Position numbers and translations under genes: made by a program. The notes beneath the pieces were generated by a model that had not been told where the DNA came from, searched no databases, and saw nothing but the letters and a program-made list of their open reading frames with translations. Below, piece by piece: positions 23,431-41,709 of a stretch of DNA of 59,400 nucleotides; position 1 is the stretch's first letter, and the number at the start of each line of letters is the position of its first letter. Source of the stretch: a candidate division Zixibacteria bacterium SM23_73_2 (lineage in GTDB: Bacteria; Zixibacteria; MSB-5A5; SM23-73-2); assembly GCA_001304315.1 (NCBI GenBank), contig LJUW01000002.1, forward strand, positions 1-59,400. Reading direction: 5' to 3'.

Positions 23431-25014
23431 TTGAAAAAGGTATTTTTCGTTTCGATCGTGGTTTTGTTAGTTTCTTCAACCCAAGCCCAAGTTCAACAAT
23501 TTGATGTTCCTACGGAAACAAAGGTTGCTTCCTTATATCCTGTGTCCGAGAAACAAACATTGGAGAAAACCATTGATCCAAATGAATATATCTTAGGACC
23601 AGGAGACCACATCTCCATTGATATTTGGGAACCATATACCTCCTATAGGATTAGGGTATCTCCTGAGGGGAATCTTTTGATTCCCCAGGTAGGTAGTGTA
23701 TTCGTAAGCGGTTTAACCTTAAATCAGGCTAAAAAGGTAATAAGAGATGAAATTTTGAAAAAATATAAAGATATCGATCTTATGGTTACTTTGGTGGATT
23801 TGAGAAGATTTAAGGTATCGGTTACCGGAGCGGTTAAACAACCAGGAGTTTATTCTGTGTTTGCCAATGCTCGAATATCCGAGATAGTCGAGAAGGCAGG
23901 TGGATTCACAGAAAATGCCTCTCGAAGAAACATAGTGATTAAAAGAACTGATGGTTCGGAGATAAAGGTTGATATCTTGAAATTTCTTTTAACTGGAGAC
24001 AGAAGCAGAAATCCTTACGCTTTAGATGGGGATGTAATATACTTACCTGTTCAGGATGAGAGGATTTCTACCTGTGCGATTTTTGGCGCGGTAAGAGCAC
24101 CAGAAGAATTCGAGTATGTGGAAGGGGATAGCCTTCTGGATCTTATAGGTTTGGCTCATGGACTGACCATGGATGCGAATTTAGCTCAAGCTGAAATCGT
24201 GAGGTTTGAACCTGATGATAAAACCATTAAGACGCTTTCAGTGTCTTTAAAGGGATTAATTTTGGATGGGAAAAGGGAGGGCAATCTAAAACTCTTGCCC
24301 GATGATAGGGTTTTCATAAGATCCATTCCGGAATTTCATCAAAAAAGAGAAGTCTTGATCTCCGGTGAAGTGCTTTATCCAGGGATTTATGCCATTGAAG
24401 AAGATCAAACCAGATTGACAGATTTGATTAGAATGGCTGGTGGTTTTACCCAAAGGGCTTCCTTGGCAGAAGCGGAGATGATAAGAGGAGAAGTGGCGGA
24501 TTTGATCGATCTCGAATTCGAAAGACTCAAGAAGATGGATGTTTCCGATATGACCAAAACCGAATATGAGTACTTCAAAACTAAAGCCAGGGAAAAACCC
24601 GGAAGGATTGCATGTAATTTTGAAAAACTTTTTTCACAAAATGACTCAAATCAGGATGTTCTTTTGAAGGACGGGGATATTATAAATTTACCCCCAATAA
24701 GCCTGGTGGTCAAAGTGAGCGGAAATGTGGTAAATCCGGGTTTAATCGAGTATAAACCTGATGAGGATTATAGGTATTACATAAGAAAAGCAGGTGGTTT
24801 TTCATGGAGAGCAAGAAAAGGAAAGGTTCGTATTATAAAGGGATTGACCGGTGAGTGGATAAAACCCGGCAGGTCCGTGAAAATCGACCCAGGTGATGTT
24901 ATCTGGATTCCGGAGAAGCCGGAGAGGGATTACTGGGGATTTTTTAAGGATGCGATGATGGTTATGGGAAACCTGGCTACGGTTTACCTTGTGGTTAAAA
25001 CTGCAACCGATTGA
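23431..25014 (+). CDS. Wza-like polysaccharide export protein with SLBB repeats
   Basis: A signal peptide (residues 1-19, no lipobox cysteine) is followed by a polysaccharide export (PES) domain, 'YILGPGDHISIDIW', and about four SLBB units recognisable by 'V(K)xPGxY...AGGFT' (for example 'GAVKQPGVYSVFANARI' and 'SGEVLYPGIYAIEED'). The C-terminus has a hydrophobic helix (about 505-524) comparable to the outer-membrane helix of Wza. The protein should form the outer-membrane export channel. Translation starts at TTG; AGGAGG at 23420-23425 with good spacing supports this. The absence of a lipidation cysteine differs from enteric Wza. The Wzz-like partner follows directly. Confidence 0.92.
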   Translation: MKKVFFVSIVVLLVSSTQAQVQQFDVPTETKVASLYPVSEKQTLEKTIDPNEYILGPGDHISIDIWEPYTSYRIRVSPEGNLLIPQVGSVFVSGLTLNQAKKVIRDEILKKYKDIDLMVTLVDLRRFKVSVTGAVKQPGVYSVFANARISEIVEKAGGFTENASRRNIVIKRTDGSEIKVDILKFLLTGDRSRNPYALDGDVIYLPVQDERISTCAIFGAVRAPEEFEYVEGDSLLDLIGLAHGLTMDANLAQAEIVRFEPDDKTIKTLSVSLKGLILDGKREGNLKLLPDDRVFIRSIPEFHQKREVLISGEVLYPGIYAIEEDQTRLTDLIRMAGGFTQRASLAEAEMIRGEVADLIDLEFERLKKMDVSDMTKTEYEYFKTKAREKPGRIACNFEKLFSQNDSNQDVLLKDGDIINLPPISLVVKVSGNVVNPGLIEYKPDEDYRYYIRKAGGFSWRARKGKVRIIKGLTGEWIKPGRSVKIDPGDVIWIPEKPERDYWGFFKDAMMVMGNLATVYLVVKTATD

Positions 25015-25024
25015 TTTGAAAGTG

Positions 25025-26260
25025 ATGGAAAGTAAAGAAGAGGAAAAAGTTGATATTTACCGATATATTTTGGTTTTAACCAGATATCGAAGATTCATAT
25101 TTTTAAATTTGGTTTTTGTGTGCGTGGTTGTCGGGATCATCTCACTTTTTCTTCCCAATTGGTATACTGCAAAGACCACAGTATTACCTCCGGAGGAGGC
25201 AGGATCTATTTTACCTTTATCCCTTTCCTCTTTAGGTGGATTTCTTCCCTCCTCAGGCATGTCCTTACCTTTGATGGTTACCCCCTCTGACATCTTCGCG
25301 GCAATACTTAGAAGCAGGACCGTGGCTGAGAGTGTGATCAACAAGGAGGATTTAATGGAGGTATATGATACTGACAAAATCTCAGATGCTTTGAAGGAAT
25401 TGAATTCGCATACCAAGATAGAAGTCACCAATGAAGGAATAGTTTCTTTGGAGTTCGAGGATAACGACAAAAACAGAGCTGCAAGGGTAGCTAATCTGTT
25501 TGTGGAGGAGTTAGATAGGATCAACCAAAAAACCAATACCTCGAAGGCTAAAAGCACCAGGATTTTTGTGGAGGAGAGGTTGTCCCAAACTCAAAAAGAA
25601 CTGGCTTTGGCTGAGGAGAATCTAAGGGCTTTCAAGGAGAAACATAAAACCATAGTTTTGGATGAGCAGATGAGAGCAGCTATCCAGGGCGCGGCTAATT
25701 TGAAGGCTGAACTGACTTTAAATGAGATTCAGCTTAATGTTTTAAGGCAGACCATGTCCGAGTCTCATCCTCAGATTCAAGGGCTCAAAACCAGAATAAA
25801 AGAGATCAAAAAACAGCTGGATCTGATGGAATTCGGGGACAGTGAAGAGAAAGACAGGCAGGATAAAATATTGGATATTCCTTTTTCAGAAGTTCCCGCC
25901 TTAAGTCTGGAGTTGGCTCGACTAACCAGGGAGGTTAAGATTCAGGAAACCGTGTTTGAACTTCTCATCCGGCAATATGAGCAGGCTAAAATCCAGGAGA
26001 CGAAGGATACCCCTACCGTTCAGATTCTGGACAAAGCAGTTCCTCCCGAGAGGAAAACCAGGCCCAAAAGAACCTTTTTGGTGGGAATAGCGGGTTTGGC
26101 CTCGCTTTTTTTGAGTATTGTTTTCGTTTTTGCTTTAGAGTATTTAAAACATTCTAAAACACAAAACCCAGAGGAGTTCAAGAAATTGGAGGAGGTTTTC
26201 AGCTCCATAAGAGAGGATATAAAGGATTTAAAAAAGCTATTCAAGAAAAGATCAAAATAG
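25025..26260 (+). CDS. Wzz-like chain-length determinant / polysaccharide co-polymerase
   Basis: The 411-residue protein has an N-terminal membrane segment ('FIFLNLVFVCVVVGIISLFL'), a large periplasmic coiled-coil region (about 160-330) and a second membrane segment near residue 365-385 preceded by the proline-rich 'PPERKTRPKR', the Wzz family layout. There is no attached Walker-type tyrosine kinase domain. It should set polymer length and bridge to the Wza-like channel. The frame is open from a TTG at 24989 that would overlap the export gene; ATG 25025, ten bases after that stop, is preferred. The short charged C-terminal tail is cytoplasmic. Confidence 0.88.
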   Translation: MESKEEEKVDIYRYILVLTRYRRFIFLNLVFVCVVVGIISLFLPNWYTAKTTVLPPEEAGSILPLSLSSLGGFLPSSGMSLPLMVTPSDIFAAILRSRTVAESVINKEDLMEVYDTDKISDALKELNSHTKIEVTNEGIVSLEFEDNDKNRAARVANLFVEELDRINQKTNTSKAKSTRIFVEERLSQTQKELALAEENLRAFKEKHKTIVLDEQMRAAIQGAANLKAELTLNEIQLNVLRQTMSESHPQIQGLKTRIKEIKKQLDLMEFGDSEEKDRQDKILDIPFSEVPALSLELARLTREVKIQETVFELLIRQYEQAKIQETKDTPTVQILDKAVPPERKTRPKRTFLVGIAGLASLFLSIVFVFALEYLKHSKTQNPEEFKKLEEVFSSIREDIKDLKKLFKKRSK

Positions 26261-26270
26261 AGAGGGAAAT

Positions 26271-27287
26271 ATGGTTAAAGTAGGTATTATCGGTTTAGGA
26301 ACCTGGGGGAAAAATCTGTTGAGGAATTTCTCTAATCTGACCGATTGCGAGGTTTTGGTCTGCTGTGATCAGCAAAAAGAGCAGTTGAAAAAAATTCAAA
26401 GTATCCATCCGGATTACAGATATGTGCAAGATTACAAAGAGATTTTGGAGGACAAAAATATAGATGCGGTGGTCATAGCTACCCCTCCCGAATCCCATTT
26501 TGAGATTGCTCATCAGGCCATATCAAAACAAAAGGATGTTTTCGTAGAAAAACCAATGGTTCTGAAGGTAGAGGATGGAGAAAAACTTCTGAAGGCAGCA
26601 GAGGAGAAAAAAAGGATTTTGATGGTGGGACACATTATGGAATACCATTCAGCGGTGCTCAAGCTTAAAGAGTTGGTGGAAAACGGGGAGTTGGGAGATA
26701 TATATTACCTTTATGCTACCAGGGTTAATCTGGGTAAGGTCCGGGATATCGAAAACGCATTATGGAGCTTTGCTCCTCACGATATCTCCACGATCCTTTA
26801 TCTTCTGAATAAAGAGCCAAAGAGAGTAACAGCTTCAGGTCAATGCTATCTGCAGAAGAAAAAGGGGATAGAGGACGTGGCTTTTTTAACCATGCATTTC
26901 GATGATGGGGTTATGGCTCATATCCATGTTAGCTGGCTCGACCCTCATAAGGAGAGAAAAATGACCATCGTGGGTAACAAAAAGATGGTAGTTTTCGATG
27001 ATATGCAGTCGGGTGGGAAGATCTGGATCTACGATAAGGGAGTGGAGACTAAACTGGATTTTAACAGCTATGGAGAGTATCTCAGCCTGAGATTTGGGGA
27101 TATTTTAATTCCCAAGATAGATTCCTCTGAGCCTTTAAAAGCAGAATGCCAGCACTTCCTTGAGTGCATAAGGGACCGCAGTACCCCCAGAAGCGATGGC
27201 AAAGACGGTTTAAGGGTTCTTAAGGTTTTGGAGGCTGCTCAATCCTCTTTGGAAAAAGGAGGAACACCTGAAGAGATAAAAACTTAA
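26271..27287 (+). CDS. Gfo/Idh/MocA oxidoreductase, WbpB/WlbA-like
   Basis: This 338-residue NAD(P)-dependent enzyme has the Rossmann start 'VGIIGLGTWGKNLLRNF' and the catalytic 'FVEKPMVL'. With the acyltransferase and aminotransferase genes that follow, it resembles the WbpB-WbpD-WbpE set. That set converts UDP-N-acetylglucosaminuronic acid to UDP-2,3-diacetamido-2,3-dideoxyglucuronic acid; this enzyme would oxidise C3. The order oxidoreductase, acetyltransferase, aminotransferase matches such clusters. The UDP-GlcNAc 6-dehydrogenase (WbpA) is not in the window, so the exact sugar remains inferred. Confidence 0.87.
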   Translation: MVKVGIIGLGTWGKNLLRNFSNLTDCEVLVCCDQQKEQLKKIQSIHPDYRYVQDYKEILEDKNIDAVVIATPPESHFEIAHQAISKQKDVFVEKPMVLKVEDGEKLLKAAEEKKRILMVGHIMEYHSAVLKLKELVENGELGDIYYLYATRVNLGKVRDIENALWSFAPHDISTILYLLNKEPKRVTASGQCYLQKKKGIEDVAFLTMHFDDGVMAHIHVSWLDPHKERKMTIVGNKKMVVFDDMQSGGKIWIYDKGVETKLDFNSYGEYLSLRFGDILIPKIDSSEPLKAECQHFLECIRDRSTPRSDGKDGLRVLKVLEAAQSSLEKGGTPEEIKT

Positions 27288-27305
27288 ATCACTACGGAGG
27301 TTAAA

Positions 27306-28049
27306 ATGGAAAACTTCGTTCACCCAGAAGCTAAAATCGGAGAGAGAACCGAGGTGGGGAGATTTTCTGTAATCGGCGAGAAAGCCGAAGTCGGTAAAGG
27401 ATGTGTTATTGGCAATAACGTGACCATTCATCCCCATACCCGGATCGGCGATTACGTGAGGATCGATGACAACACGGTTGTCGGGAAACAACCGATGAAA
27501 GCGGTTGCATCCGCCACCACCAAAATAGAGAAATTGCCTCCGGCCAAGATCGGAGATAACTGCATCATCGGCACTTCGGTGGTGATCTATGCGGGGGCAG
27601 CCATTGGTGAGAAGGTTCTGGTTGCGGATCTGGCTACCATCAGAGAGAACGTCTCCATCGGAGATTTTACCATCATCGGAAGAGGTGTGGCTGTGGAGAA
27701 CTACTGCAAGGTTGGCTCGCGCTGCAAGCTGGAGACCAACGTTTACATCTGTGCCTATTCGGAGATTGAGGATTTTTGCTTCATCGCACCCTGTATTGCA
27801 ACCTCCAACGACAATTACATGGCTCGGACCAAGGAGAGGTTCAAACATTTCAAGGGAGTAACGGTCAAAAAGGGCGGCAGGATCGGAGTACACGCCACCA
27901 TCCTGCCGGGCAAGGTCATAGGTGATGACAGCCTGGTAGCAGCTGGCTCGGTGGTGACCAGAGATACCCCCTCCAAAAAGATCTGTATGGGTTTGCCGGC
28001 TCGGGTGTGGAAGGATGTTCCTGAGGAGCAGCTTTTGGAAAACCAGTAA
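27306..28049 (+). CDS. Hexapeptide-repeat acyltransferase, WbpD-like
   Basis: The 247-residue protein is a left-handed beta-helix with many 'I/V-G-x4' hexapeptides from residue 8 to about 225 and the terminal 'GLPARVWK' typical of sugar N-acetyltransferases. It should acetylate the C3 amine made by the adjacent aminotransferase, using acetyl-CoA. It is longer than WbpD itself (about 190 residues) because of extra N-terminal hexapeptide coils. A clear GGAGG-like site lies before the ATG. It sits 18 bases after the oxidoreductase. Confidence 0.88.
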   Translation: MENFVHPEAKIGERTEVGRFSVIGEKAEVGKGCVIGNNVTIHPHTRIGDYVRIDDNTVVGKQPMKAVASATTKIEKLPPAKIGDNCIIGTSVVIYAGAAIGEKVLVADLATIRENVSIGDFTIIGRGVAVENYCKVGSRCKLETNVYICAYSEIEDFCFIAPCIATSNDNYMARTKERFKHFKGVTVKKGGRIGVHATILPGKVIGDDSLVAAGSVVTRDTPSKKICMGLPARVWKDVPEEQLLENQ

Positions 28050-28074
28050 CTTTTAGAAAAACAGAGGAGAGAAA

Positions 28075-29178
28075 ATGAAGGTTCCGCTTTTGGATTTAAA
28101 AAGGCAGTATCATTCGATAAAAGATGAGATAGATCAGGCAGTAAACGAGGTTTTGGAAAATACCCGATTCATCCTTGGACCCCAGGTGAAGGAATTCGAG
28201 GAGAACGTGGCAAAATACTGTGGTGACGGATATGCTGTGGGAGTAGCTTCAGGAACCGATGCTTTGCTTTTGTCCTTAAGGGCTTGTGGAGTAGAACCCG
28301 GTGACGAGGTGATCATTCCTCCTTTTACTTTTTTCGCCACCGCCGGGGTAATAACCAGGTTGGGAGCCAAGCCGGTTTTTGTGGATATAGACCTTCTGAC
28401 CTATAATCTTTTGCCGGATAAAATAGAGGAAAAAATAACTGAGAGGACAAAGGCGATAATGCCGGTGCATCTTTTTGGCCAGTGTGCGGATATGGATCCC
28501 ATAATGGAGGTTGCTAAAAAACACAACCTTAAGGTGGTGGAGGATGCTGCCCAGGCCATAGGATCAAAATATAAGGGGAGAAGAGCAGGGACGATTGGAG
28601 ATCTGGGATGTTTTAGCTTTTTCCCCAGCAAAAACTTGGGAGGTGCTGGTGATGGTGGTATGGTTATAACCGATGACGAGAAATTAGCTGATCTGGTCAG
28701 AAAACTGAGGGTCCACGGTGCAACCCAGAAATACTTCCATCCCATGGTGGGATACAACAGCCGGCTGGATACCCTTCAGGCAGCCATCCTGAATGTGAAA
28801 CTCAAATACCTGGATGAATGGTCAAGCAAAAGAAGGGAAAAGGCAGAGGTTTATAACCGTGCCTTTGCGAATACGGATATCGTAACTCCAAAGGAAGAGG
28901 AGTTTAATTACCATATCTACCATCAATACACCATATCAGTCAAAAACAGGGATAAGCTGAAAGAACATCTTTTGGAAAACCAGATCGGATGTTCGATCTA
29001 CTATCCCTTATCTTTGCATCTGCAGGAGTGTTACAGGTACTTAGGATATAAAAAAGGAGACTTTCCCAACTCGGAGATAAGGTCAGAGGAAGTGATATCG
29101 ATTCCTGTTTTCCCCGAGCTTACCGAGGAGGAGCAGGAATTTGTGATTGAGAAGATAAAAGATTTCATAAAAGATTAG
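28075..29178 (+). CDS. DegT/DnrJ/EryC1/StrS aminotransferase, WbpE-like
   Basis: This 367-residue PLP enzyme transfers an amino group to a nucleotide-linked keto sugar. The PLP lysine is Lys186 in 'FFPSKNLGGAGDGG'. 'ASGTDAL', 'PPFTFFATAG' and 'VEDAAQAIG' are family blocks. Its place after the WbpB- and WbpD-like genes indicates that it acts on the 3-keto intermediate. An AGGAGA ribosome site precedes the ATG, and 25 bases separate it from the acyltransferase. Confidence 0.93.
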   Translation: MKVPLLDLKRQYHSIKDEIDQAVNEVLENTRFILGPQVKEFEENVAKYCGDGYAVGVASGTDALLLSLRACGVEPGDEVIIPPFTFFATAGVITRLGAKPVFVDIDLLTYNLLPDKIEEKITERTKAIMPVHLFGQCADMDPIMEVAKKHNLKVVEDAAQAIGSKYKGRRAGTIGDLGCFSFFPSKNLGGAGDGGMVITDDEKLADLVRKLRVHGATQKYFHPMVGYNSRLDTLQAAILNVKLKYLDEWSSKRREKAEVYNRAFANTDIVTPKEEEFNYHIYHQYTISVKNRDKLKEHLLENQIGCSIYYPLSLHLQECYRYLGYKKGDFPNSEIRSEEVISIPVFPELTEEEQEFVIEKIKDFIKD

Positions 29179-29224: not shown

Positions 29225-30667
29225 TTGACAGTATCAAAGAAAGTCTTAAAGAATTTTTCTTTTTTACTCGGGGCTGATCTAGCAGCCAAAGTTTTAGTCT
29301 TTGTTAGTGTCGTCTATTTAGCGAGGATTTTAACTGTTGAGGGATTTGGCAAGATTGAATTTGCCCAGGCCATAATTGTTTATTTTATTTTATTGGCAAA
29401 TCAGGGACTGGATCTTTGGGGAACTCGAGAAGTTGCAAGGGAGGAAGGGAGGAAAAAGGAGATAGCGGATAACATTCTAAGTTTGAGATTTTTTTTGTTT
29501 TTTCTTGCTTACGGGATACTGGTCCTTTTTGTTTTGCTCTTAAACAAACCTGCGGATATCAAAAAGCTAATCCTTTTATATGGTTTGACTATTTTCACAT
29601 TTTCTTTAACTATTAATTGGTTTTTTCAGGGCATTGAACGAATGGAAATAATAGCTTTAGGACGGCTGATAAATCAATTGTTTTATGTCTGTGGTGTACT
29701 TCTGATAGTGACAAATACTACTCAAATATTTCACGTTCCCGTGATAAAATTTTTTGGGGGATTATTATCATTAAGCCTTTTGGCTTATTTGTTTTTTAAA
29801 AGTGAGGGGATGCCTAAAATACGTTTTGATATATCATTGTGGAAAAAGACTCTTAAACAGTCATTACCTATGGGATTTTCCTTAATATTGATCCAGATCT
29901 ATTATAATCTTGATACTATTATGTTGGGCTTTATCAAAGGGGAGAAAGAGGTTGGTTGGTACAATGCGGCTTATAAGATCATTTTATTGTTTATTGGATT
30001 TGCAAGTTTATTTGGGAACGCTCTTTTTCCAGTCCTTTCACGCTATTATAAGGAATCCAGGGACAAACTTCGGACTATTATCACCGAATCCTCCAGGATC
30101 ACACTTTTTTTTGGAATTCCAATATCGGTTGGAATCTGTTTTCTCTCCAGGGAGATCATGCAGATAGTGTATGGATCTATGTATTTAAAAGGGGCTGTTG
30201 CTTTACAGATATTAGTTTGGAGCGTTTTTACCATCTATTTCAATGCTCCCTTTGGGTTTTTGCTTTTAGCTACGGAGAGACAGAAAAAATATATGTACGC
30301 AGTTGGCTTGGGAGCCTTAGTCAATTTAATTTTGAACTTAATCCTGATACCCAGATATGGTTTGATGGGTGCAAGTATATCAACTATTATTTGTGAAATA
30401 ATTGTTTTAAGTCTAATTCTTTACTATTCAAGAGAGTTGGTTAAAGTTCCTTTATCTGGATATCTAACAAAAGGATTTGTTTCCTCTTTTCTTATGGGTC
30501 TGTTTATTTATTTATTCCCCTTTAATTTATTTATGAAAATTTTTGTTGGGGGTGTGTGCTATTTGATCTGTATGTTTTTCCTCGGGGGAGTTAGCAGAAA
30601 AGATGCGAAGTCAGCCTATGAATTTCTTCGAAATTCTTATCAGGAGAAAAAAATTGGAAAGAACTAA
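29225..30667 (+). CDS. Wzx-type polysaccharide flippase
   Basis: The 480-residue protein has about 12-14 membrane helices and the MATE-like oligosaccharide flippase pattern: the N-terminal 'NFSFLLGADLAAKVLVFVS', then 'LTVEGFGKIEFAQAI' and 'NQGLDLWGTREVAR'. It should move lipid-linked repeat units across the inner membrane to the polymerase at 31684. The start is TTG 29225, since no better ATG is nearby. Its base composition is AT-richer than the sugar-nucleotide genes before it, as is often seen for variable O-unit genes. Confidence 0.92.
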   Translation: MTVSKKVLKNFSFLLGADLAAKVLVFVSVVYLARILTVEGFGKIEFAQAIIVYFILLANQGLDLWGTREVAREEGRKKEIADNILSLRFFLFFLAYGILVLFVLLLNKPADIKKLILLYGLTIFTFSLTINWFFQGIERMEIIALGRLINQLFYVCGVLLIVTNTTQIFHVPVIKFFGGLLSLSLLAYLFFKSEGMPKIRFDISLWKKTLKQSLPMGFSLILIQIYYNLDTIMLGFIKGEKEVGWYNAAYKIILLFIGFASLFGNALFPVLSRYYKESRDKLRTIITESSRITLFFGIPISVGICFLSREIMQIVYGSMYLKGAVALQILVWSVFTIYFNAPFGFLLLATERQKKYMYAVGLGALVNLILNLILIPRYGLMGASISTIICEIIVLSLILYYSRELVKVPLSGYLTKGFVSSFLMGLFIYLFPFNLFMKIFVGGVCYLICMFFLGGVSRKDAKSAYEFLRNSYQEKKIGKN

Positions 30668-31683: not shown

Positions 31684-33126
31684 ATGGAAATCCAGTTTTT
31701 AAAAGAAAGCAATCTTTCGATGAGATCGTTGATTATCTGGTTTACCTTTCTACTTTTGTTATGTTTTTTGATAATAGCCATGCCACACAAATTCTATCTT
31801 GTTGGAATTGTTTTATTTGGATTGAGTTTTCTGTTAGTGTTGAATCATTGGTTGAAACTTAATGTTGCTTCAATTTTAGTACTTTCGATTCTTTATTCTG
31901 CACCCTTGGAGATCATGTACTGGAAGATAGGTTTTGCCCTAAGACCCATAATTCTTGTTACCCTTTTAGGATTCTATTTTGTAGTGCTGAAATATTTGTT
32001 AGAAGGATTGAGGGCTCATATTAAGACCAAGCGACTTTTTATTCTGTGCTATCTTCTTATCTGTACATTTTTACTATCTTATTTTGGTGCTCTGGAACCA
32101 ATAAGAAGTATAAGGGTAACAATCCTTTATATAACTCTTTTTATGTTACTCTTTTTGATAATTCAATTGATAAAAGAGAAAAAAGAGTTTAAAGTTTATT
32201 TAAAACATTATATGATAATTGGTGTTTTACTCTCATTATACGGGATTTTGCAATTTTTAGGGTGGACGTTTGGTTTCGATTTTTATGGATTATTGCTATC
32301 AAAATTTAGATCAAATATGTATAACATCTTTATGTTAAGTACCTTAGGTACTCAGGTTTTTAGAATCAATTCATTTTTTACTGATTGCAACAATTTTGCT
32401 GCTTTCTTGAACACGGTTTTCCCCTTGTTCCTCGCTGGAAATCTGTATTATTTCTCGATAAGAAAGTCTAAACAATTTTGGATTTATTTCCTAGGTGCTT
32501 TCATCGTTGGAATTACATTGATTTTGACCTTTTCAAGGAGTGGGTGGATGGGATTGTTAGCAGGAGTTTCAGTCGTAATGTGGGATAAAAGAAAGCAAAT
32601 TTTCAAAGCGAAAAACCTGAGAGCGATTGTTCTTACGATATTGCTTTTGCTTTTATTAATTATCCCCTTTTATAATTATCTCAGTTATTCAATTGAGTAT
32701 CGATTGGTTGAAAAGGTGTCTTCCAAAATACACTTTTTTGTGATGAAGGCTGCTTGGGATATGTTCTTGAGCAATCCTATAACTGGAGTTGGCATAGGGA
32801 ATTTCGGTGCTTATTATGGAAGATATATAAACCCCGGATTTGATTATTATAATCCCCATTCAACCTATCTTGCAATTCTTTCTGAGACGGGGATATTAGG
32901 ATTTATAGTACATATGGCTATTTACTTGTTTGTCTTGAAACAGATACTTTGCTTTAAGAGAAAGACAAAAGGATATGAGTCAGAGGTATTGGGGACTGGG
33001 CTTTTAGCTGGTTTTGTTGCTTTAATGGTGGCAAATATTTTCTACCAGAACTATACTTTTCAGTTCTTTTTTGTTTTTCTGGGTTTAGGATTTGTCTCCG
33101 GTTTGGTAGCTGAGCAAAAGGATTGA
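31684..33126 (+). CDS. O-antigen polymerase/ligase family protein (Wzy/WaaL-like)
   Basis: The 480-residue protein has about twelve membrane helices and, between two late helices, the family loop 'GVGIGNFGAYYGRY' followed by 'NPHSTYLAILSETGILGF', typical of O-antigen ligase-like (Wzy_C/WaaL) proteins. It should either polymerise flipped repeat units or attach finished chains to a carrier; sequence alone does not decide between them. The Wzx, Wzz and Wza partners nearby favour a Wzy-type polymerase. The next gene follows closely. Confidence 0.87.
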   Translation: MEIQFLKESNLSMRSLIIWFTFLLLLCFLIIAMPHKFYLVGIVLFGLSFLLVLNHWLKLNVASILVLSILYSAPLEIMYWKIGFALRPIILVTLLGFYFVVLKYLLEGLRAHIKTKRLFILCYLLICTFLLSYFGALEPIRSIRVTILYITLFMLLFLIIQLIKEKKEFKVYLKHYMIIGVLLSLYGILQFLGWTFGFDFYGLLLSKFRSNMYNIFMLSTLGTQVFRINSFFTDCNNFAAFLNTVFPLFLAGNLYYFSIRKSKQFWIYFLGAFIVGITLILTFSRSGWMGLLAGVSVVMWDKRKQIFKAKNLRAIVLTILLLLLLIIPFYNYLSYSIEYRLVEKVSSKIHFFVMKAAWDMFLSNPITGVGIGNFGAYYGRYINPGFDYYNPHSTYLAILSETGILGFIVHMAIYLFVLKQILCFKRKTKGYESEVLGTGLLAGFVALMVANIFYQNYTFQFFFVFLGLGFVSGLVAEQKD

Positions 33127-33137
33127 TAATTTTAAAA

Positions 33138-34082
33138 ATGGATCTATCAATCATAATAGTCAATTGGAAGGTTAGGGAACTTTTGAGAGAATGCTTGAGT
33201 TCGATCATCTCTTTTTCGAATAGAGATGGGTTGGAGTTGATCGTCATTGATAATGCTTCTGAGGATGGTAGTGTGGAAATGATGAAAAATGAATTTCCTA
33301 AGGTTAAGTTGATTGTAAATAAAGAGAATTATGGCTTCGGGAAGGCATGCAATCAAGGTATAGGAATTGCTCGAGGAAGGTATCTTTTCATTTTAAATCC
33401 AGATACTTTGGTTAAAGGTCATACCTTAGAAAATATATTGGATTTCATGGAATCAAATCCCCAGGTCGGGATTGGTGGATGTTATGTCTTTTATCCAGAT
33501 GGTAGACCTCAGAGTTCTTTTTACAGGTTCCCCACCTTGTTCTCCTACCTCAGCCGGATGTTTTCTCTTTTTCGCTTACTTCCGTTAAACAGATTGACCC
33601 AGAAATTCTTTTGGGAATACAAAGATAACAAAGTTTCTGGCTCGGTGGATAGGGTGTTGGGGGGTGCTATGGTGCTGAGTAAAAAGATGGTCGACCAGAT
33701 CGGCTCATTTGATGAAGCCTATTTCATGTATTCGGAGGAACTGGATTTATGTTACCGTGCAAGGTTAACCGGTTGGAAAGTATCCACTATTCCAGGTACT
33801 GAGATAATACATTATCATATGCAAAGCGGTGTTCAAAATCTTAGGAATATAACTTTTCATTCATTCAAAAGTGATTTTATCTTTTTTAAAAAGTTTTATC
33901 CAGTTTACAAGGTGATTCTGATAAGGATAATGCAATTCCTAGGGATATTTTTTCGCACAATGGCATGGGGTGGTATTTATCTTTTCCCCTATTCCAAGAA
34001 ATATTATGCCAAAGAGAAATTTTTGTCTTACCTTAAACTTTTGTTTTCAAATTTTGACTATTCGAAATCGCTATTCTTATAA
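33138..34082 (+). CDS. GT2 family glycosyltransferase
   Basis: The 314-residue protein has a GT-A fold of the rhamnosyltransferase-like GT2 group: 'LSIIIVNWKVRELLRECL', 'VIDNASEDGS', 'FILNPDTLV' for metal and nucleotide binding, and the acceptor-side block 'GGAMVLSKKMVDQIGSFDE' with 'YSEELDLCYRARLTGWK'. A hydrophobic stretch near residue 270-290 may associate it with the membrane. The frame could start at TTG 33123, but ATG 33138 gives the usual N-terminus. The sugar transferred is unknown. Confidence 0.9.
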   Translation: MDLSIIIVNWKVRELLRECLSSIISFSNRDGLELIVIDNASEDGSVEMMKNEFPKVKLIVNKENYGFGKACNQGIGIARGRYLFILNPDTLVKGHTLENILDFMESNPQVGIGGCYVFYPDGRPQSSFYRFPTLFSYLSRMFSLFRLLPLNRLTQKFFWEYKDNKVSGSVDRVLGGAMVLSKKMVDQIGSFDEAYFMYSEELDLCYRARLTGWKVSTIPGTEIIHYHMQSGVQNLRNITFHSFKSDFIFFKKFYPVYKVILIRIMQFLGIFFRTMAWGGIYLFPYSKKYYAKEKFLSYLKLLFSNFDYSKSLFL

Positions 34083-34210
34083 GACAAAAAGTTTCAAACG
34101 CTAAGATGATTACCAGATCACTATCGTGTATTGAAAGATATGTCTGAGGATTGATTTGGACTTAGGTCGAAATGGATCACCAAAATCAATATTGATGATA
34201 TGTTAAGAGC

Positions 34211-35326
34211 ATGAAAGTGGATAGGCATATAAAGAAAATATTGATAATTAAATTATGTTGTATCGGAGATATCCTTTTTACCACTCCGTCAATTCGAGCA
34301 CTGCGAAAAGGATTTCCGGAAGCTCATTTGGCTTATCTTGTGGGGAGTTGGAGTAAGGAAATAATTGAGGACAATCCTAATCTTGACGAGATTATTGTTT
34401 ACGATTCCCCACAACATTCATCCATTAGGTGGCGGTCCTATATCAGGACCTTAAAGTGTTTGCAAAAGCTGCGTCGAGGTAAATTTGATTTGGTGGTAAT
34501 TTTCCACCGAACCCCATTCAGCAGTTTTTTTGCTTTTCTGGCTGGAATCCCTTATCGAATAGGGTTTGATTATGCTGGGAGAGGTAGATTTTTGACCCAA
34601 AGAGTCCTCTTCGATTCTGGCAAACATGAGGTGGATCGTTACCTGGATGTTGTATACTCCCTTGGAATTAAATCGGCTGGAAAAGCCACTGAGATGAAAG
34701 TAATGCCAGAGGAAAAGAGTTATGCTTGGAACATATTGCGAGATAATGGAGTTAAAGCTGAGGATGAAGTAATCGGTGTGTTGGCTGGTGGTGGAAAGAA
34801 TCCAGGTGCATCTATGCTAACCAAGCGTTGGTCACCTCAAAAATTTTCTCAATTAGCTGATCGTATGATCGAAAAATATAAGGTAAAGATTGTCTTCATT
34901 GGCGGATCTGGTGATGAGGATGTGGTCAAAGAGGTGATGTCTGGAATGAGAAATAACTCGATTAATTTAGTCGGAAGGACTAATTTTAAGCAGCTGGCTG
35001 CAGTTTTAAAACGATGTGAGCTTTTCATTGGTGGCGACTCTGGTCCCCTCCATATTGCGGCAGCAGTAGGTACGCCGACGATCGGAATCTTTGGTCCCTC
35101 GGATCCAAAGCTGGTTGCCCCGAGGGGTAAGAACCATTTGACAATTTGGAAGAATGTGAGCTGCAGCCCCTGTTACAGACCTGATACTGTACTATCAGAG
35201 AAAGATTTTTCAAAATGCCACGAGGGCACACTGAGGTGTATGGAGAAGATAACCGTGGAGGATATCCTAGTTGCTGTTGATCAACAAATGGGGAAGCTGG
35301 ATAAACAAAGAAATGAAGATCAGTAA
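34211..35326 (+). CDS. GT9 family glycosyltransferase (heptosyltransferase-like)
   Basis: The 371-residue GT-B enzyme shows 'ILIIKLCCIGDILFTTPSIRAL' at the N-terminus and the C-terminal nucleotide-sugar site 'FIGGDSGPLHIAAAVGTPTIGIFGPSDP', both diagnostic of ADP-heptose:LPS heptosyltransferase relatives. It may add heptose or another sugar to the lipid A core or O-unit. A four-cysteine C-terminal segment ('CSPCYRPD', then 'KCHEG', 'RCME') is a frequent family feature. It is separated from its neighbours by 128 and 176 bases. Confidence 0.9.
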   Translation: MKVDRHIKKILIIKLCCIGDILFTTPSIRALRKGFPEAHLAYLVGSWSKEIIEDNPNLDEIIVYDSPQHSSIRWRSYIRTLKCLQKLRRGKFDLVVIFHRTPFSSFFAFLAGIPYRIGFDYAGRGRFLTQRVLFDSGKHEVDRYLDVVYSLGIKSAGKATEMKVMPEEKSYAWNILRDNGVKAEDEVIGVLAGGGKNPGASMLTKRWSPQKFSQLADRMIEKYKVKIVFIGGSGDEDVVKEVMSGMRNNSINLVGRTNFKQLAAVLKRCELFIGGDSGPLHIAAAVGTPTIGIFGPSDPKLVAPRGKNHLTIWKNVSCSPCYRPDTVLSEKDFSKCHEGTLRCMEKITVEDILVAVDQQMGKLDKQRNEDQ

Positions 35327-35502
35327 GTTTTTTTGAAAAAATCAAGAGAAGTACTGCAAGTTTAACTACAAATTTTCTTAGGATGAACCCTCTTAATTTT
35401 TAAATTTCAAAAATACTTAAAAAACTTGCATAAAAAGGAAAGGATTATTTATTACAATAAGTTAGACAAAAGATTGATTATGATCAGCAAGATAGTTAAA
35501 AG

Positions 35503-36615
35503 ATGATAAAAGTTCTTCATGTTTATAAAAGCTATTATCCTGTAATCGGAGGAGTAGCCAATCATATCAAGGTTTTGTGTTCTGAGATGGCCAAAAACAA
35601 AGATATGAATATAGAGATTCTGGTTGTTAATCAGAAAATGAAAAGTGTTAATGAAACCTATGAAGGGATCAGAGTCGTCAGAGCTGGAAAGGTTTTCGAA
35701 TTATCCTCCACTCCCATCAGCCCCAGTTTATACTACTGGATGAAAAAACTGGATCCGGACATATTGCACTTGCACTTCCCTTTTCCTCCGGGCGAGTTAT
35801 CAGCATTGCTTTTTGATCGCAGTAAAAAGATTGTTTTAACCTATCACAGTGATATCGTAAAACAGAAAAACCTTCTTTTCTTCTATCGACCTTTTTTGAG
35901 AAAGATATTGGAGAAAGCAAAAGCCATCATTGCTTCGAGTCCCAGTTATCTCTCGACCTCATCGTTCTTGGCCAATTTTAAGAATAAAGTTGAAATAATA
36001 CCATATGGGATAGATGTTTCCTTTTTTCAGAAAAGAGATGAGGAAAAGATTAAAGAGATAAAAGATAGATTTAGGTCACCATTAATTCTATTCGTGGGTA
36101 TGTTCAGATATTACAAAGGATTGCAGTTTTTGATCTCAGCTGCTGAGAATGTGGATGCAATATTTATTTTAGTAGGTACGGGAGAATACGAGATGGAATT
36201 GAGGAATCAGGTAAGGGATAATAAATTGGAGAACAGGGTGTTCTTCTTAGGTGAAGTTAAAGATGATGATCTTCCAAATTACTACCAAGCTTCGGATATC
36301 TTTGTTTTACCCTCTACTCATAGGAGCGAGGCTTTTGGCATTACCCAACTGGAAGCAATGGCATGTGGCTTGCCTGTTATCTCCACCGAGTTGAATACTG
36401 GAACCTCTTTCGTGAATGTTGACAGGAGAACAGGTCTGGTAGTTCCTCCGTCTGACGCCAATTCTTTGATCTCAGCATTAAATAAGATATTGTCTGACCA
36501 GACCTTAAGAAGAAGATTTGGAGAAGCAGGTAAAAAAAGAGTGGAACAATACTTCTCAAAAGAATTAATGACTCAAAAAATAAAAGGAGTATATCAAAAA
36601 ATACTAAAAGGTTGA
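35503..36615 (+). CDS. GT4 family glycosyltransferase
   Basis: This 370-residue GT-B retaining enzyme has the N-terminal 'VLHVYKSYYPVIGGVANHI' glycine loop, 'ILHLHFPFPP', and the C-terminal E-x7-E motif in 'SEAFGITQLEAMACG'. GT4 enzymes transfer sugars such as mannose, glucose or GlcNAc from nucleotide donors; the donor is not predictable here. It follows the GT9 gene and precedes the double phosphoglycosyltransferase gene by 26 bases. Confidence 0.92.
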   Translation: MIKVLHVYKSYYPVIGGVANHIKVLCSEMAKNKDMNIEILVVNQKMKSVNETYEGIRVVRAGKVFELSSTPISPSLYYWMKKLDPDILHLHFPFPPGELSALLFDRSKKIVLTYHSDIVKQKNLLFFYRPFLRKILEKAKAIIASSPSYLSTSSFLANFKNKVEIIPYGIDVSFFQKRDEEKIKEIKDRFRSPLILFVGMFRYYKGLQFLISAAENVDAIFILVGTGEYEMELRNQVRDNKLENRVFFLGEVKDDDLPNYYQASDIFVLPSTHRSEAFGITQLEAMACGLPVISTELNTGTSFVNVDRRTGLVVPPSDANSLISALNKILSDQTLRRRFGEAGKKRVEQYFSKELMTQKIKGVYQKILKG

Positions 36616-36641
36616 TTACTTTCTTAGATTGATTTTTAGCT

Positions 36642-39011
36642 ATGGACTATTTTATTACATTTACGATTTCTCTTATAGTGACCTTCTTGTCTATCCCCTT
36701 TTTGATTCGCATTGCCAAAAGGTATAATTTCTTGGATTACCCTTCCAGCCTCAAGTCCCATCCCAAACCCACTCCTCTTTTAGGGGGCGCAGGTGTTTTT
36801 TTAGGATTTCTATTCTCGATGACACTTGGTACCTTTATTACCGGTACAACTTGGAGCCACAACCTGGCTGCTCTTTTTATAGGAGCTATAATTGTTGTTA
36901 TCATAGGTTTAATCGATGATAAAAAAGGTCTTTCCCCCAGCGTAAAATTCTTCTGGCAGATTTTGGCTGCACTAACCTTTATTCTGATAAGTGATAAGGC
37001 GAATATTCTCACCGGTAACGGATGGGATATCTTGATCCTTTTGTTGTGGATAGTAGGATTGATGAATGCCTTGAACTTCTTGGATGCCATGGATGGATTG
37101 TGCGGGGGGGTCTCCTTCATTGCCTCGCTTTCTTTTTTTGTTCTGGCACTATTTTCCGGGCAAAATTATTCTATTCTAATCAGCTTAGCTCTGATGGGAG
37201 CACTTCTGGGATTTTTGAGGTATAATTTTTATCCGGCTAAGATATTCTTGGGGGATGCGGGGAGCATGCTCTGCGGTTATATCCTGGCTTGTCTGGGAAT
37301 TTTTTTTGCAGAAGCAAACCAGTCCCCCTCCACTCTTTTAGTTCCGGTTCTTATCCTGTCCTACCCCATATTCGACATCTCTTTTGTGACTTTAATTCGA
37401 GCACGGGAGGGAAGAAAAATATATATCGGCGACTACAACAATTCGCCCAGGCGCATTTTGAAATTGGTTTTAAATCCGGTGAGAACGGTCTTATCCATTT
37501 ACATGATATGTCTGCTTTTGGGTGGGGTAGGGCTTTTAGTTTTTTTCTTTTTCGATTCCCCTTTCAAGATGCTTCTGTCAGTTTCAATAGGTTTGGCACT
37601 GGTTATTTTGGGACTACACCTCCACCGAAGCTTCGTTAACGTTGAGAAGAAGGTGCTTTTGATCTTCTTTGATCTTTTAGCAATAAATGCCTCATTTATT
37701 TTCTTCTATTTCATAAGATTCAGGCCAGTGATCTTTAACTCGGATCTTTTCATTCCATTAAATGAGCTTGTGGTTCCGATAATATGGATTAATCTTTTTT
37801 GGCTTAATCTGTTTGCCATGTTAGGGCTTTACGAATTTTCCTCTGACCGCTTGATCAAAGAGGAGTGGAAAAGGATTTTTAAATCAGTGGTTTTGGGTAT
37901 TTTTATCTTTCTTGTTTTGAGCTTCGGCCCTGCTTATCTGTCTTTAAAGTCGCTTTCTTTGTTTTGCATCTATGGTTTAAGCCTTTTTGGATTTTTAGGT
38001 CTGGAGAGAACCCTTTTGATATTTTTGTGGAGAAGGCTTTTTTACAGAAAAAAGGTCTATAGAAAAGCATTGATTGTTGGAACAAAAGAAAACGCCAAGA
38101 AACTTCTTCAGAAGATAAATTCTGATCCCAAATCAGGATACAAAGTGGTGGGATTTGTTTCCGAGGAGAGAAACCCTACAAATTCGGATTTAAATGTTCT
38201 GGGCCAGATAGAGGACCTTGGCGAGATCTCCAGAGAAAAGCAGGTGGAGGAGATATTGATTGCTTTTAATCCGGATTGGAAAGGCTCTTTGAGGGAGCTG
38301 ACCAGTAAAGTGTCCAATCTGGAGGTCGATTTCAGAATTGAGTCATCCAATTGGGAGTTTGCCAGAGGGGAGAAAACGGAAAAACTGAAGACCTCTTACC
38401 TTAAAAGATTTTGCCCAAACCAGATGAGAACCTGGGAATGGGGGATAAAAAGATTAGTTGATTTTCTTTCTGCCACGATATTGCTCTTGGGGTTTTCACC
38501 TTTATGGTTTTTGTTATGGGCTTTGGTTAAAACCAATCTGGGCTCCCCTGCGCTGGTCAAAGTGATCTGTGTGGGAGTGAGGAATCGTTTTTTCAAGCTT
38601 TATAAGTTCAGGGTTTCTACAGATGAGAAAAGTGAGAATGAGGGTCCGATCTTATCAGAGACTCCCCAAGGTTTCTGGGGAAAGCTTCTGAGAGAATCGA
38701 AAATTGAGTTGCTGCCAGTTTTTCTTAACGTTCTGAAAGGGGAGATGAGCCTTGTAGGTCCAAGGGTTAATTCTTATCAGACTTTCAAAGATATCTCATC
38801 TCAGATATCGTTATACCCAAAAAGACTCCTGGTGAAACCCGGAGTCATTAATCTGGCTGATTTGAAGGTGAATTTAAAAGATGGCATCGAGAGCGAAAAA
38901 AAAAGGCTTTTCTACGATATATTTTATGAGGAGAACCTGTCATTGCTTCTGGATCTGAGGATTCTTTTAACCAAAATAGTTTTACCTTTCATGGGGAGAA
39001 AAAATGCTTGA
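36642..39011 (+). CDS. Fusion of WecA/MraY-type and WbaP-type phosphoglycosyltransferases
   Basis: Residues 1 to about 320 form a polytopic WecA/MraY-like transferase with 'HPKPTPLLGG', Asp92-Asp93 ('GLIDDKKGL'), 'NFLDAMDGL' (Asp148, Asp151) and 'FLGDAGS' (Asp205). The histidine-rich loop of WecA (HxxHH type) is replaced by 'GDYNNSPRR' (263-271). Residues about 330-789 look like a full-length WbaP/WcaJ protein: membrane helices, a CoA_binding_3-type Rossmann domain ('KALIVGTKENAKKLLQ'), and a bacterial sugar-transferase domain ending 'NVLKGEMSLVGPRVN'. In that domain the catalytic Asp-Glu of 'DELPQ' appears as Glu689-Leu690 in 'IELLPV'. The protein should start repeat-unit assembly on undecaprenyl phosphate, but both active sites look altered. 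serS overlaps its end by 8 bases. Confidence 0.85.
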   Translation: MDYFITFTISLIVTFLSIPFLIRIAKRYNFLDYPSSLKSHPKPTPLLGGAGVFLGFLFSMTLGTFITGTTWSHNLAALFIGAIIVVIIGLIDDKKGLSPSVKFFWQILAALTFILISDKANILTGNGWDILILLLWIVGLMNALNFLDAMDGLCGGVSFIASLSFFVLALFSGQNYSILISLALMGALLGFLRYNFYPAKIFLGDAGSMLCGYILACLGIFFAEANQSPSTLLVPVLILSYPIFDISFVTLIRAREGRKIYIGDYNNSPRRILKLVLNPVRTVLSIYMICLLLGGVGLLVFFFFDSPFKMLLSVSIGLALVILGLHLHRSFVNVEKKVLLIFFDLLAINASFIFFYFIRFRPVIFNSDLFIPLNELVVPIIWINLFWLNLFAMLGLYEFSSDRLIKEEWKRIFKSVVLGIFIFLVLSFGPAYLSLKSLSLFCIYGLSLFGFLGLERTLLIFLWRRLFYRKKVYRKALIVGTKENAKKLLQKINSDPKSGYKVVGFVSEERNPTNSDLNVLGQIEDLGEISREKQVEEILIAFNPDWKGSLRELTSKVSNLEVDFRIESSNWEFARGEKTEKLKTSYLKRFCPNQMRTWEWGIKRLVDFLSATILLLGFSPLWFLLWALVKTNLGSPALVKVICVGVRNRFFKLYKFRVSTDEKSENEGPILSETPQGFWGKLLRESKIELLPVFLNVLKGEMSLVGPRVNSYQTFKDISSQISLYPKRLLVKPGVINLADLKVNLKDGIESEKKRLFYDIFYEENLSLLLDLRILLTKIVLPFMGRKNA

Positions 39012-40275
39012 TTTAAGATTTATTAGGGAAAATTCTGATCTGGTTAAAGAGGCGGTCAAAAACAAGGGGGAGGATGTGAATGTGGATGAGCTTTTGAAAT
39101 TGGATGAAAAAAGAAGGAAGCTTATATCACAAGCAGAAAAGTTGAAGCATCAAAAAAACGTTTTTTCGGAAAAAATCGCTGGTTTGAAAATGAACAAAAA
39201 GGATTTTCAAGCGGATGTTGAGAAGATGAAGGAGGTTTCAAAGAGTATATCAGAACTGGATAAAAGCCTTAAACAGATAAACGAGAAACTCAATGAGCTT
39301 CTGCTTAAGGTTCCCAATATACCCCATGCCTCTGTTCCGGTGGGAGCTGATGAGAGCTGCAATTTGGAGATTAGAAGCTGGGGGGAGCTTCCCCGGTTCG
39401 ATTTTGAGCCTCGCCCCCACTGGGAGATAGGGAAGATATTGGGAATTCTGGATCTCCCCAGGGCAGCAAAGGTCTCGGGATCTGGTTTTCTGATGTTTTT
39501 AGGATTGGGAGCTAAACTCGAAAGAGCTTTGATTAATTTTATGTTGGACCTCCATGTAAAAAAACACGGATACAAAGAGATCTTTCCACCATTTTTGGTC
39601 AACCGTTCCAGCATGACCGGAACGGGTCAACTTCCCAAGCTGGAGGAAGATATGTATCTAACAGAGAAAGACGATCTGTTTTTGATTCCAACTGCAGAGG
39701 TTCCGGTGACCAATATTTATCGGGATGAGATGTTAAAGGAAGATGACCTTCCCTTGAATTTCGCCTCCTATACTGCATGTTTCAGAAGGGAAGCCGGAAC
39801 CTACGGAAAGGATACCCGGGGGATGATCAGGGTTCACCAGTTTGACAAGGTGGAGCTGGTTAAATTCGTCAAGCCCGAGAACTCCTATCAGGAGTTGGAG
39901 AATCTGGTTGACCATGCCGAGGAGGTCTTGAAGCTTTTGGGCTTACCTTACCGGGTGAGGAATCTGTGCACCGGAGATTTGAGCTTTGCTGCTGCAAAAT
40001 GCTACGATCTTGAAGCTTGGGCTTGTGGGCTGGGCAAACATCTGGAGGTTTCATCCTGTAGCAATTTCGAGGACTTTCAGGCGAGAAGGATCGGAATTAA
40101 ATACAGAACCAAAAAGAACAACAAGCCTGAATTTTTACATACTTTGAATGGCTCAGGAGTAGCTCTGCCCAGAACCATGATCTGTATTCTGGAGAACTAT
40201 CAGACCAAAAAGGGGACGGTAAAAGTTCCCGAGGTTTTAAAGCCATATATGGACGGGATTGAGGAGATCGAATAG
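39004..40275 (+). CDS. serS: Seryl-tRNA synthetase
   Basis: The 423-residue enzyme charges tRNA-Ser with serine. It has the N-terminal antiparallel coiled-coil arm (about 30-100) that grips tRNA, class II motif 2 'CFRREAGTYGKDTRGMIRVHQF', and motif 3 'GSGVALPRTMICILENYQ'. Length and architecture are normal. It begins inside the last codons of the polysaccharide fusion gene (8-base overlap), so a housekeeping gene is tied to the tail of the surface-sugar operon. Confidence 0.97.
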   Translation: MLDLRFIRENSDLVKEAVKNKGEDVNVDELLKLDEKRRKLISQAEKLKHQKNVFSEKIAGLKMNKKDFQADVEKMKEVSKSISELDKSLKQINEKLNELLLKVPNIPHASVPVGADESCNLEIRSWGELPRFDFEPRPHWEIGKILGILDLPRAAKVSGSGFLMFLGLGAKLERALINFMLDLHVKKHGYKEIFPPFLVNRSSMTGTGQLPKLEEDMYLTEKDDLFLIPTAEVPVTNIYRDEMLKEDDLPLNFASYTACFRREAGTYGKDTRGMIRVHQFDKVELVKFVKPENSYQELENLVDHAEEVLKLLGLPYRVRNLCTGDLSFAAAKCYDLEAWACGLGKHLEVSSCSNFEDFQARRIGIKYRTKKNNKPEFLHTLNGSGVALPRTMICILENYQTKKGTVKVPEVLKPYMDGIEEIE

Positions 40276-40462: not shown

Positions 40463-40538
40463 ATGTTAAATATTCAATAATACAAAATTCATAATGTTGT
40501 TGCACATGAAGCACTTATAGCATATAATGTTAAATATT
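40463..40538 (+). repeat. Direct repeats ATGTTAAATATT upstream of the Fic gene
   Basis: ATGTTAAATATT occurs at 40463-40474 and again at 40527-40538, 64 bases apart; a related TGTTAAATGTA lies at 40442. The second copy is within ten bases of the Fic start codon. Such placing fits operators for autoregulation by the Fic protein's own C-terminal winged helix, which is inference. Confidence 0.45.
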
Positions 40539-40545
40539 GAATTTT

Positions 40546-41709
40546 ATGGTTGCAAATTTTAAACACATAGATTTACGACTTATTGATCCCCCTTTTAGAT
40601 CAGAACTGAATACTCTCATTTTAGAACTTGATTATTTACGCAAAAAACCTTTAGGTGGGACAACAAAATCCTTAATATTTTTTCAATTAAAAAATATTTT
40701 TCATTTGTTAGAAAGTATTGGCTCAGCACGTATTGAAGGAAACCGCACTACTTTGGCAGAATATATTGAAAGAAAAATAGAAGGTGGCAAGACAAGAGAC
40801 GAAAGATTTTTAGAAATCGAAAATAATGAAGAAGCTCTTGATTTTATAGAAAAAAATATTGACAGGAATAAGATCGACCGAGCCTTTTTAAGTGAAGTTC
40901 ATAAAATTGTAGTTAATGGACTCACCCCACCGCCAAGGGGTGAGGGAAGTAAATATCCCGGTGAGTATAGAAAAATCAATCTTGCCATAACACAGTCCTC
41001 TCTTACTCCACCAGATGTTTCTCAGGTCCTTTCCTATATGGAAGAACTTTTTAATTTTATAAATGAGGAACATCCGCCACAATACGACTTATTAAAAGTT
41101 GCCCTTGCTCATCACCGTTTTGCCTGGATCCACCCTTTTGATAATGGAAATGGCAGGGCGGTTCGTTTATTAACTTATGCTATGTTGGTTAAATATGGCT
41201 TTCGAGTACATATTGGTGGGAGAATTATAAATCCGACTGCTGTTTTTTGTTCTGACCGTCAAAAATATTATGACTATCTATCTTTAGCAGACAAGGGCGA
41301 TGATGGAGGATTGCTTTCTTGGTGTGAGTATGTGCTCGGAGGACTTAAAGAAGAAATCAATAAGATCGATAAACTTCTTGACTATCGATTTTTGGAAGAA
41401 AACATTTTACAGCCCGCAATTGATTTTGCTTTCGAGAGGAAGTACATAACTGAAATAGAATATAAAGCGTTGCAGGTTGCTGCTAAAAAGCAAGTTATCC
41501 AAGCATCTGATATAAAGAAAATTGCCTCTGGGAAATTACCAGCTGAAATTTCCAGAATTCTTGGAAGATTACGAGAGAAAAAAATGTTGCAGAGCGAAAA
41601 AGAAAAGGGTAGGAAATATTTGCTTCAATTTGTAAATAATTATTTGCTGCGAGGAATTATAGAAATGTTAGGGAAAGAAGGATTCTTACCTATACCAATC
41701 AATAAATAA
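40546..41709 (+). CDS. Fic-domain protein (probable AMP-transferase) with C-terminal winged helix
   Basis: The 387-residue protein holds the catalytic Fic motif 'HPFDNGNGRAVR' (His196), which normally transfers AMP from ATP to a hydroxyl group on a target protein. An N-terminal inhibitory helix with S-x3-E-G (Ser60, Glu64, 'SARIEGN') matches class II autoinhibited Fic proteins. Residues about 300-365 resemble a winged helix ('ASDIKKIASGKLPAEISRIL'), so it may also bind DNA. ATG 40546 is chosen over TTG 40537. No Shine-Dalgarno site is visible. The gene is AT-rich compared with serS and lies in an accessory patch, suggesting horizontal transfer. Its target is unknown. Confidence 0.9.
   Translation: MVANFKHIDLRLIDPPFRSELNTLILELDYLRKKPLGGTTKSLIFFQLKNIFHLLESIGSARIEGNRTTLAEYIERKIEGGKTRDERFLEIENNEEALDFIEKNIDRNKIDRAFLSEVHKIVVNGLTPPPRGEGSKYPGEYRKINLAITQSSLTPPDVSQVLSYMEELFNFINEEHPPQYDLLKVALAHHRFAWIHPFDNGNGRAVRLLTYAMLVKYGFRVHIGGRIINPTAVFCSDRQKYYDYLSLADKGDDGGLLSWCEYVLGGLKEEINKIDKLLDYRFLEENILQPAIDFAFERKYITEIEYKALQVAAKKQVIQASDIKKIASGKLPAEISRILGRLREKKMLQSEKEKGRKYLLQFVNNYLLRGIIEMLGKEGFLPIPINK

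Follow-up and report, generated by a model that had tools for sequence, protein, structure and literature searches.

A polytopic phosphoglycosyltransferase fused to a catalytically degenerate WbaP-like half in Zixibacteria

Two unrelated superfamilies of phosphoglycosyltransferases (PGTs), the polytopic and the monotopic enzymes, perform the same first step of surface-polysaccharide synthesis by different chemistry. The locus considered here raises the question of what a single protein built from both could do. It lies in a window of 59,400 nucleotides, the whole stretch of DNA that was analyzed, from candidate division Zixibacteria bacterium SM23_73_2, a Candidatus Zixiibacteriota MAG. One open reading frame of 789 amino acids (36642..39011; this and all features below are on the forward strand) encodes a polytopic, WecA/MraY-like half followed by a large mono-PGT-like half. 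The original prediction held that both active sites are altered and that either one half has become a scaffold or the fusion carries out a changed two-step priming reaction. Our analysis confirms the observation and supports the first of these interpretations but not the second.

That two PGT types are present in one protein is clear from three Pfam matches, all far over their cut-offs. PF00953 (Glycos_transf_4; E = 3e-35, 121.9 bits against a cut-off of 27) matches residues 76–221 within the polytopic half (residues 1–335; 36642..37646), PF13727 (E = 1e-17) matches residues 394–566 (37821..38339), which cover the end of a transmembrane (TM) helix bundle and a Rossmann-like domain, and PF02397 (Bac_transf; E = 2e-32) matches residues 603–779 (38448..38978), the mono-PGT core. 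The TM bundle, at residues about 335–470 (37644..38051), is placed by a TIGR03025 match that begins at residue 343 and by the helices of a low-confidence model of the full-length fusion (four sequences; pLDDT 40.8), from which helix positions alone were taken. Bundle, PF13727, and PF02397 follow each other in the order of the large monotopic PGTs WbaP and WcaJ; the original prediction had called this half apparently full length. The curated NCBIfam cut-offs for large mono-PGTs are not reached (TIGR03025, 226 vs. 295.6 bits; TIGR03023, 204 vs. 410.8; TIGR03022, 133 vs. 403), nor is that of the ECA WecA equivalog TIGR02380 (89.9 vs. 326). Comparison with solved structures relates the N-terminal half to MraY and DPAGT1 and the C-terminal half to PglC and WbaP. 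The AlphaFold model of the polytopic half (pLDDT 78.7, pTM 0.85) resembles MraY (Foldseek E = 1e-9, TM about 0.7) and DPAGT1 (TM 0.6–0.7).

The same domain order was looked for in 133 genomes of the phylum and, beyond these, in one pattern-based scan of genome contigs. Among the 133, it is found in 22 genomes from six GTDB families, as 20 full-length copies and two that end at contig edges; a 23rd genome (G010) holds a C-terminal fragment, also at a contig edge. All fusion-bearing relatives are MAGs, and the nearest named records, 50–74% identical over the full length, are likewise from Candidatus Zixiibacteriota. Because the identical join recurs in 22 genomes, chance, an assembly artefact, or a frameshift uniting two genes can be set aside. 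A search of the open-access literature yielded no description of a mono/poly PGT fusion or of a PGT pseudoenzyme. In trees with local free-standing homologs, the C-terminal halves form one clade separate from all free-standing large mono-PGTs (support 100/100), and the N-terminal halves also form one clade (82/89). The N-terminal half of the fusions is likely, though not certain, to have a single origin, since two Eisenbacteria sequences, once added, are placed inside this clade on long branches. Both Eisenbacteria loci encode an unfused poly-PGT and were rejected as candidate fusions.

The C-terminal half has kept its domain and, to judge from its residues, not its chemistry. Aligned with 16 large mono-PGTs, the window protein reads S-K-I-E689-L690-L-P around the position of the catalytic Asp-Glu dyad (Glu689-Leu690; 38706..38711); DELPQ or DEIPQ stands there in all 18 free-standing mono-PGTs from the phylum. 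The alignment reveals no shifted copy of the dyad, and the alteration originally reported here stands. Moreover, the dyad is missing from all 20 full-length fusions, and the G010 fragment retains the Asp with Lys in place of the Glu. Among positions that do not vary in the controls, those with a structural role are mostly retained (in WcaJ numbering, the re-entrant-helix Pro, K274, D278, G373, G379, K405, G407, Y437, S442, and D446) and those of the catalytic segment are lost, D362, E363, Q366, M330, R348, R381, and T409 being gone; the glycines of the Rossmann domain are partly gone in one family. For every pair that allowed the calculation, each half has a dN/dS below 1, with dS near saturation in the more distant pairs. 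In a genus-level comparison of G002, G006, and G008, based on few changes, the ratio is about 0.2–0.5 in the C-terminal half against 0.1–0.2 in the polytopic half, so that the C-terminal half is the faster-evolving of the two. Given a dyad that is intact in all 18 free-standing mono-PGTs of the phylum and absent from every full-length fusion, we conclude from the alignments that the WbaP-like half is a conserved pseudoenzyme. The predicted scaffold finds support in this half, where active-site residues are lost in every member and structural residues kept.

For the polytopic half, the alignment comprised E. coli WecA together with 20 local poly-PGTs that are free-standing (16 of the WecA type and 4 MraY). 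The aspartates that the original prediction listed are indeed in place: Asp92-Asp93 (36915..36920) align with WecA D90/D91, Asp148 and Asp151 within NxxxxxDAMDG (37083..37094) with D156 and D159, and Asp205 of FLGDAGS (37254..37256), a Mg ligand in MraY and DPAGT1, with the GD-motif aspartate. The first pair is kept in 21 of 21 fusions, and Asp205, like the complete set of five, in 20 of 21. The exception, the G127 fusion, has LGSTGS for LGDAGS and is the sole copy without the Mg-ligand aspartate; its dyad is missing too, and it is possibly a fully inactive member. Opposite the HIHH of WecA, the window protein has G263-D-Y-N-N-S-P-R-R271 (37428..37454), as had been noticed. The histidine loop (HIHH, HxxHR, or HHH), which every free-standing WecA and MraY protein in the alignment has, is thus missing, and the alignment offers no shifted histidines; residues 258–277 are a low-confidence stretch of the polytopic model (pLDDT <50).

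Across the family the loop varies, and the claim that both active sites are altered is correct for the window protein but not for the fusions as a whole, in which the polytopic aspartates are nearly always kept and the histidine loop survives intact in roughly half of the lineages. A KDHxSHR-like loop with small changes occurs in G002, G008, G009, G013, G022, G027, G029, G034, G036, and G127, and G006 has KDHSSLR. Four patterns replace it: GDYNNSPRR in the window genome, G005, and G007; AQDHSPRC in G001; PDSSPYR in four genera of family f18, which have AAPDSSPYR in common; and KDHAWDM in G019 and G126. The loop is not fixed within a genus, since G001 is congeneric with the window genome. However, it is among the most invariant stretches inside the variant clades, and GDYNNSPRRI is identical in its three proteins despite polytopic halves that are only 58–73% identical. 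This near invariance makes simple decay less likely, with G001 and the window genome as the counter-example. As a family, the polytopic half looks functional, and it probably still starts the sugar chain.

A Wzx/Wzy-type cluster needs an initiator that acts on undecaprenyl phosphate. Wherever the contig extends far enough, a glycosyltransferase-bearing polysaccharide cluster ends with the fusion. In the window, this cluster comprises export (SLBB/Poly_export) and chain-length (Wzz) genes (23431..26260), a WbpB/D/E-like set of Gfo/Idh, hexapeptide acyltransferase, and DegT aminotransferase genes that recurs in other fusion loci (26271..29178), a Wzx-type flippase (29225..30667; PF01943), a Wzy_C polymerase/ligase-type protein (31684..33126; PF04932), and GT2, GT9, and GT4 glycosyltransferases directly upstream of the fusion (33123..36615). 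The cluster is thus of the kind that requires an initiator, and the fusion is the only candidate seen. In agreement with the original prediction, a second priming PGT did not turn up in the window proteins that were scanned. The same is true of the whole draft genome apart from MraY, its sole other PF00953 protein, and there is no other PF02397 protein, although at 86% completeness another initiator could sit in a gap. In G001, which is 98% complete, the other poly-PGT is again MraY only, and the other mono-PGT is only a 5'-truncated remnant. Within this genus (g1), MraY aside, no initiating PGT was found intact other than the fusion, which adjoins the Wzx/Wzy cluster. The remnant itself (contig C43, about 33722–34141) is of the conventional type, with SLDELPQ still readable, and suggests that an ordinary initiator was recently lost in the genus.

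These observations bear on the best-surviving alternative, namely that in the window clade both halves are dead, the protein scaffolding or regulating the polysaccharide machinery and priming being left to another enzyme. Dyad and histidine loop are both lost there, and a loop without histidines could well be dead, since WecA H279S is reported not to restore O7 antigen (PMC5222938) and mutation of His302 in DPAGT1 abolishes 98% of activity (PMC6218659); the G127 fusion, in which D205 is gone as well, indicates that decay of both halves does happen. Yet across the window clade neither the five aspartates nor the N142/N145 region varies, the loop variant shows conservation instead of drift, and the survey of the two congeneric genomes found no other initiator in the one and no intact one in the other. 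We therefore regard this alternative as unlikely.

Downstream, the fusion is followed by serS (39004..40275), a flanking marker phylum-wide, wherever the flank is reached; in one locus the serS reading is broken by masked bases. A histidine kinase and a PorX-like regulator then come in most fusion loci. This block is conserved in the phylum independently of the fusion, so its adjacency was discarded as evidence of a functional link. In the window, the two are a histidine kinase (43144–44364) and a response regulator with a PglZ domain (44428–46002), a pair that adjoins serS in most phylum genomes searched. A Fic-domain protein (40537–41709) and a 241-aa protein without a Pfam match (41937–42662) stand between serS and the kinase, two genes that in most of the other examined loci have little or nothing between them. 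Several Zixibacteria families that lack the fusion have, immediately before serS, a gene for a WbpM/CapD-like UDP-sugar dehydratase of 767–845 aa (nine loci); these dehydratases have an apparent second, extra N-terminal TM bundle that is large mono-PGT-like (33% identity over 94 aa in G035).

Immediately 5' of the fusion, 17 loci carry a sugar-nucleotide SDR that is 62–73% identical across families (the match in G122 is partial). It is missing from the four window-clade loci, and elsewhere in those genomes there are only paralogs at about 31–37% identity. The SDR is most similar to UDP-glucuronate decarboxylase; no curated NCBIfam cut-off is reached, so we name no donor sugar from it. This UXS-like gene is absent at 35503–36642 of the window, and a GmhB-like HAD phosphatase gene, found before the SDR in several loci, is likewise missing from the window clade. 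The absence of the SDR is no more than suggestive of a changed sugar pathway, because it probably represents one event on the tree. Even so, it weighs, as does the invariance of the loop within variant clades, against a second alternative, in which the polytopic half is active, the loop change is neutral, and the donor (e.g., UDP-GlcNAc) is unchanged. This alternative draws on the archaeal and eukaryotic relatives AglH and DPAGT1, which do without HIHH (PMC5222938), and on loop sequences that differ even inside one genus, but the SDR is absent from exactly the four window-clade loci, and we consider a neutral change improbable.

The changed two-step priming of the original prediction finds no support, because a covalent two-step reaction is the chemistry of the mono half, whose dyad is gone and which in two families has no acid at that position. 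It is very improbable that the mono half works with Glu in place of the Asp nucleophile, by an unusual covalent mechanism or as a second transfer step in one chain: 11 of 20 fusions do have an acid (Glu689 in the window protein) where the Asp would be, and K655, F656, and R657 of the KFR motif persist in the window protein, but the partner Glu is replaced by Leu, Met, Lys, Tyr, or Arg, Q366, R348, T409, and M330 (WcaJ numbering) are gone too, and the domain is retained regardless in family f12, with Arg at the acid position, and in f18, where the whole segment is gone.

The N-terminal part has been exchanged between lineages. The congeneric G005 and G009 have C-terminal halves that are 74–81% identical and polytopic halves that are 51% identical, with different loops. 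The polytopic data reject this pair (p-AU 0.0005), and the C-terminal data reject monophyly of the four proteins with variant loops (p-AU 0.0002). With G027 and G126, the pair is again rejected by the polytopic data (p-AU 0.0001), and the C-terminal test gives p = 0.06. The pairs were picked after the trees had been seen, so these p values are somewhat flattering. Recombination inside the gene appears to be the simplest account: it would join a variable polysaccharide cluster, together with its polytopic half, to the conserved C-terminal half and serS flank. The pattern fits a polytopic half that travels with the sugar chain.

We thus favor, with a probability of roughly 0.6, the hypothesis that the fusion is a phylum-specific initiating PGT whose polytopic half is active with changed donor recognition and whose mono half is a non-catalytic membrane module. 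The polytopic half would transfer sugar-1-phosphate from a UDP-sugar to undecaprenyl phosphate in one step, in the manner of WecA and MraY, and so start the repeat unit of the neighboring Wzx/Wzy-type polysaccharide. In the window clade, the replacement of the donor-recognizing histidine loop by the Asn/Arg loop DYNNSPRR most likely alters donor recognition. The C-terminal half would be a large mono-PGT of the WbaP/WcaJ type whose catalysis was lost either ahead of the fusion or shortly afterwards. By analogy with WbaP, whose PF13727 domain senses UMP, a uridine nucleotide, and supports the dimer (PMC10942596), it most likely dimerizes the enzyme and may supply uridine-nucleotide feedback; it may also offer a docking face for regulators, as in EpsZ/EpsW (PMC12802240). 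More tentatively, the fusions may constitute a new class of initiator, in which one PGT superfamily, as a pseudoenzyme, has become the control module of the other (dimer, UMP feedback), the active half is exchanged by recombination as the first sugar of the cluster changes, and the Asn/Arg loop confers a donor specificity unseen in bacterial WecA. A protein that unites both superfamilies and keeps one of them without its catalysis would provide a natural test of the non-catalytic parts of WbaP-type enzymes, and the natural loop variants form a set for testing what the poly-PGT loop recognizes.

Compared with known systems, the N-terminal half has the fold, DD motif, NxxNxxDxxDG motif, and GD Mg-ligand motif of ordinary polytopic PGTs, from which it differs in its C-terminal mono-PGT-like half, in DAMDG or DNMDG for DGxDG, and, in the window clade, in NNSPRR for the HIHH/HxxHR loop. 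The nearest unfused relatives found, the Eisenbacteria poly-PGTs, have DAMDG and a GGVDHTTHRL loop and, unlike the fusion, no mono-PGT half. DPAGT1/Alg7 and archaeal AglH are poly-PGTs that resemble the window protein in lacking the bacterial HIHH, and DPAGT1 and AglH are active without it (PMC6218659, PMC5222938). DPAGT1 uses Arg301, His302, and Arg303 in the equivalent region, where Arg301 grips the pyrophosphate (PMC6218659), and the Asn/Arg loop may grip the donor similarly, the likeness of S-P-R-R being judged by eye and the loop modeled at low confidence. With WbaP, WcaJ, and EpsZ (TIGR03025; PF13727 and PF02397), the C-terminal half has in common the order of TM bundle, Rossmann-like domain, and mono core; it differs from them in scoring below the TIGR03025 and TIGR03023 cut-offs and in having lost, in all members, the dyad and several other active-site residues. 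The bifunctional mono-PGT fusions (Bi-PGTs; PMC10942596) likewise combine a PGT domain with another domain of the pathway, but their mono-PGT domain is catalytic, whereas that of the Zixibacteria fusion is degenerate and its partner belongs to the other PGT superfamily.
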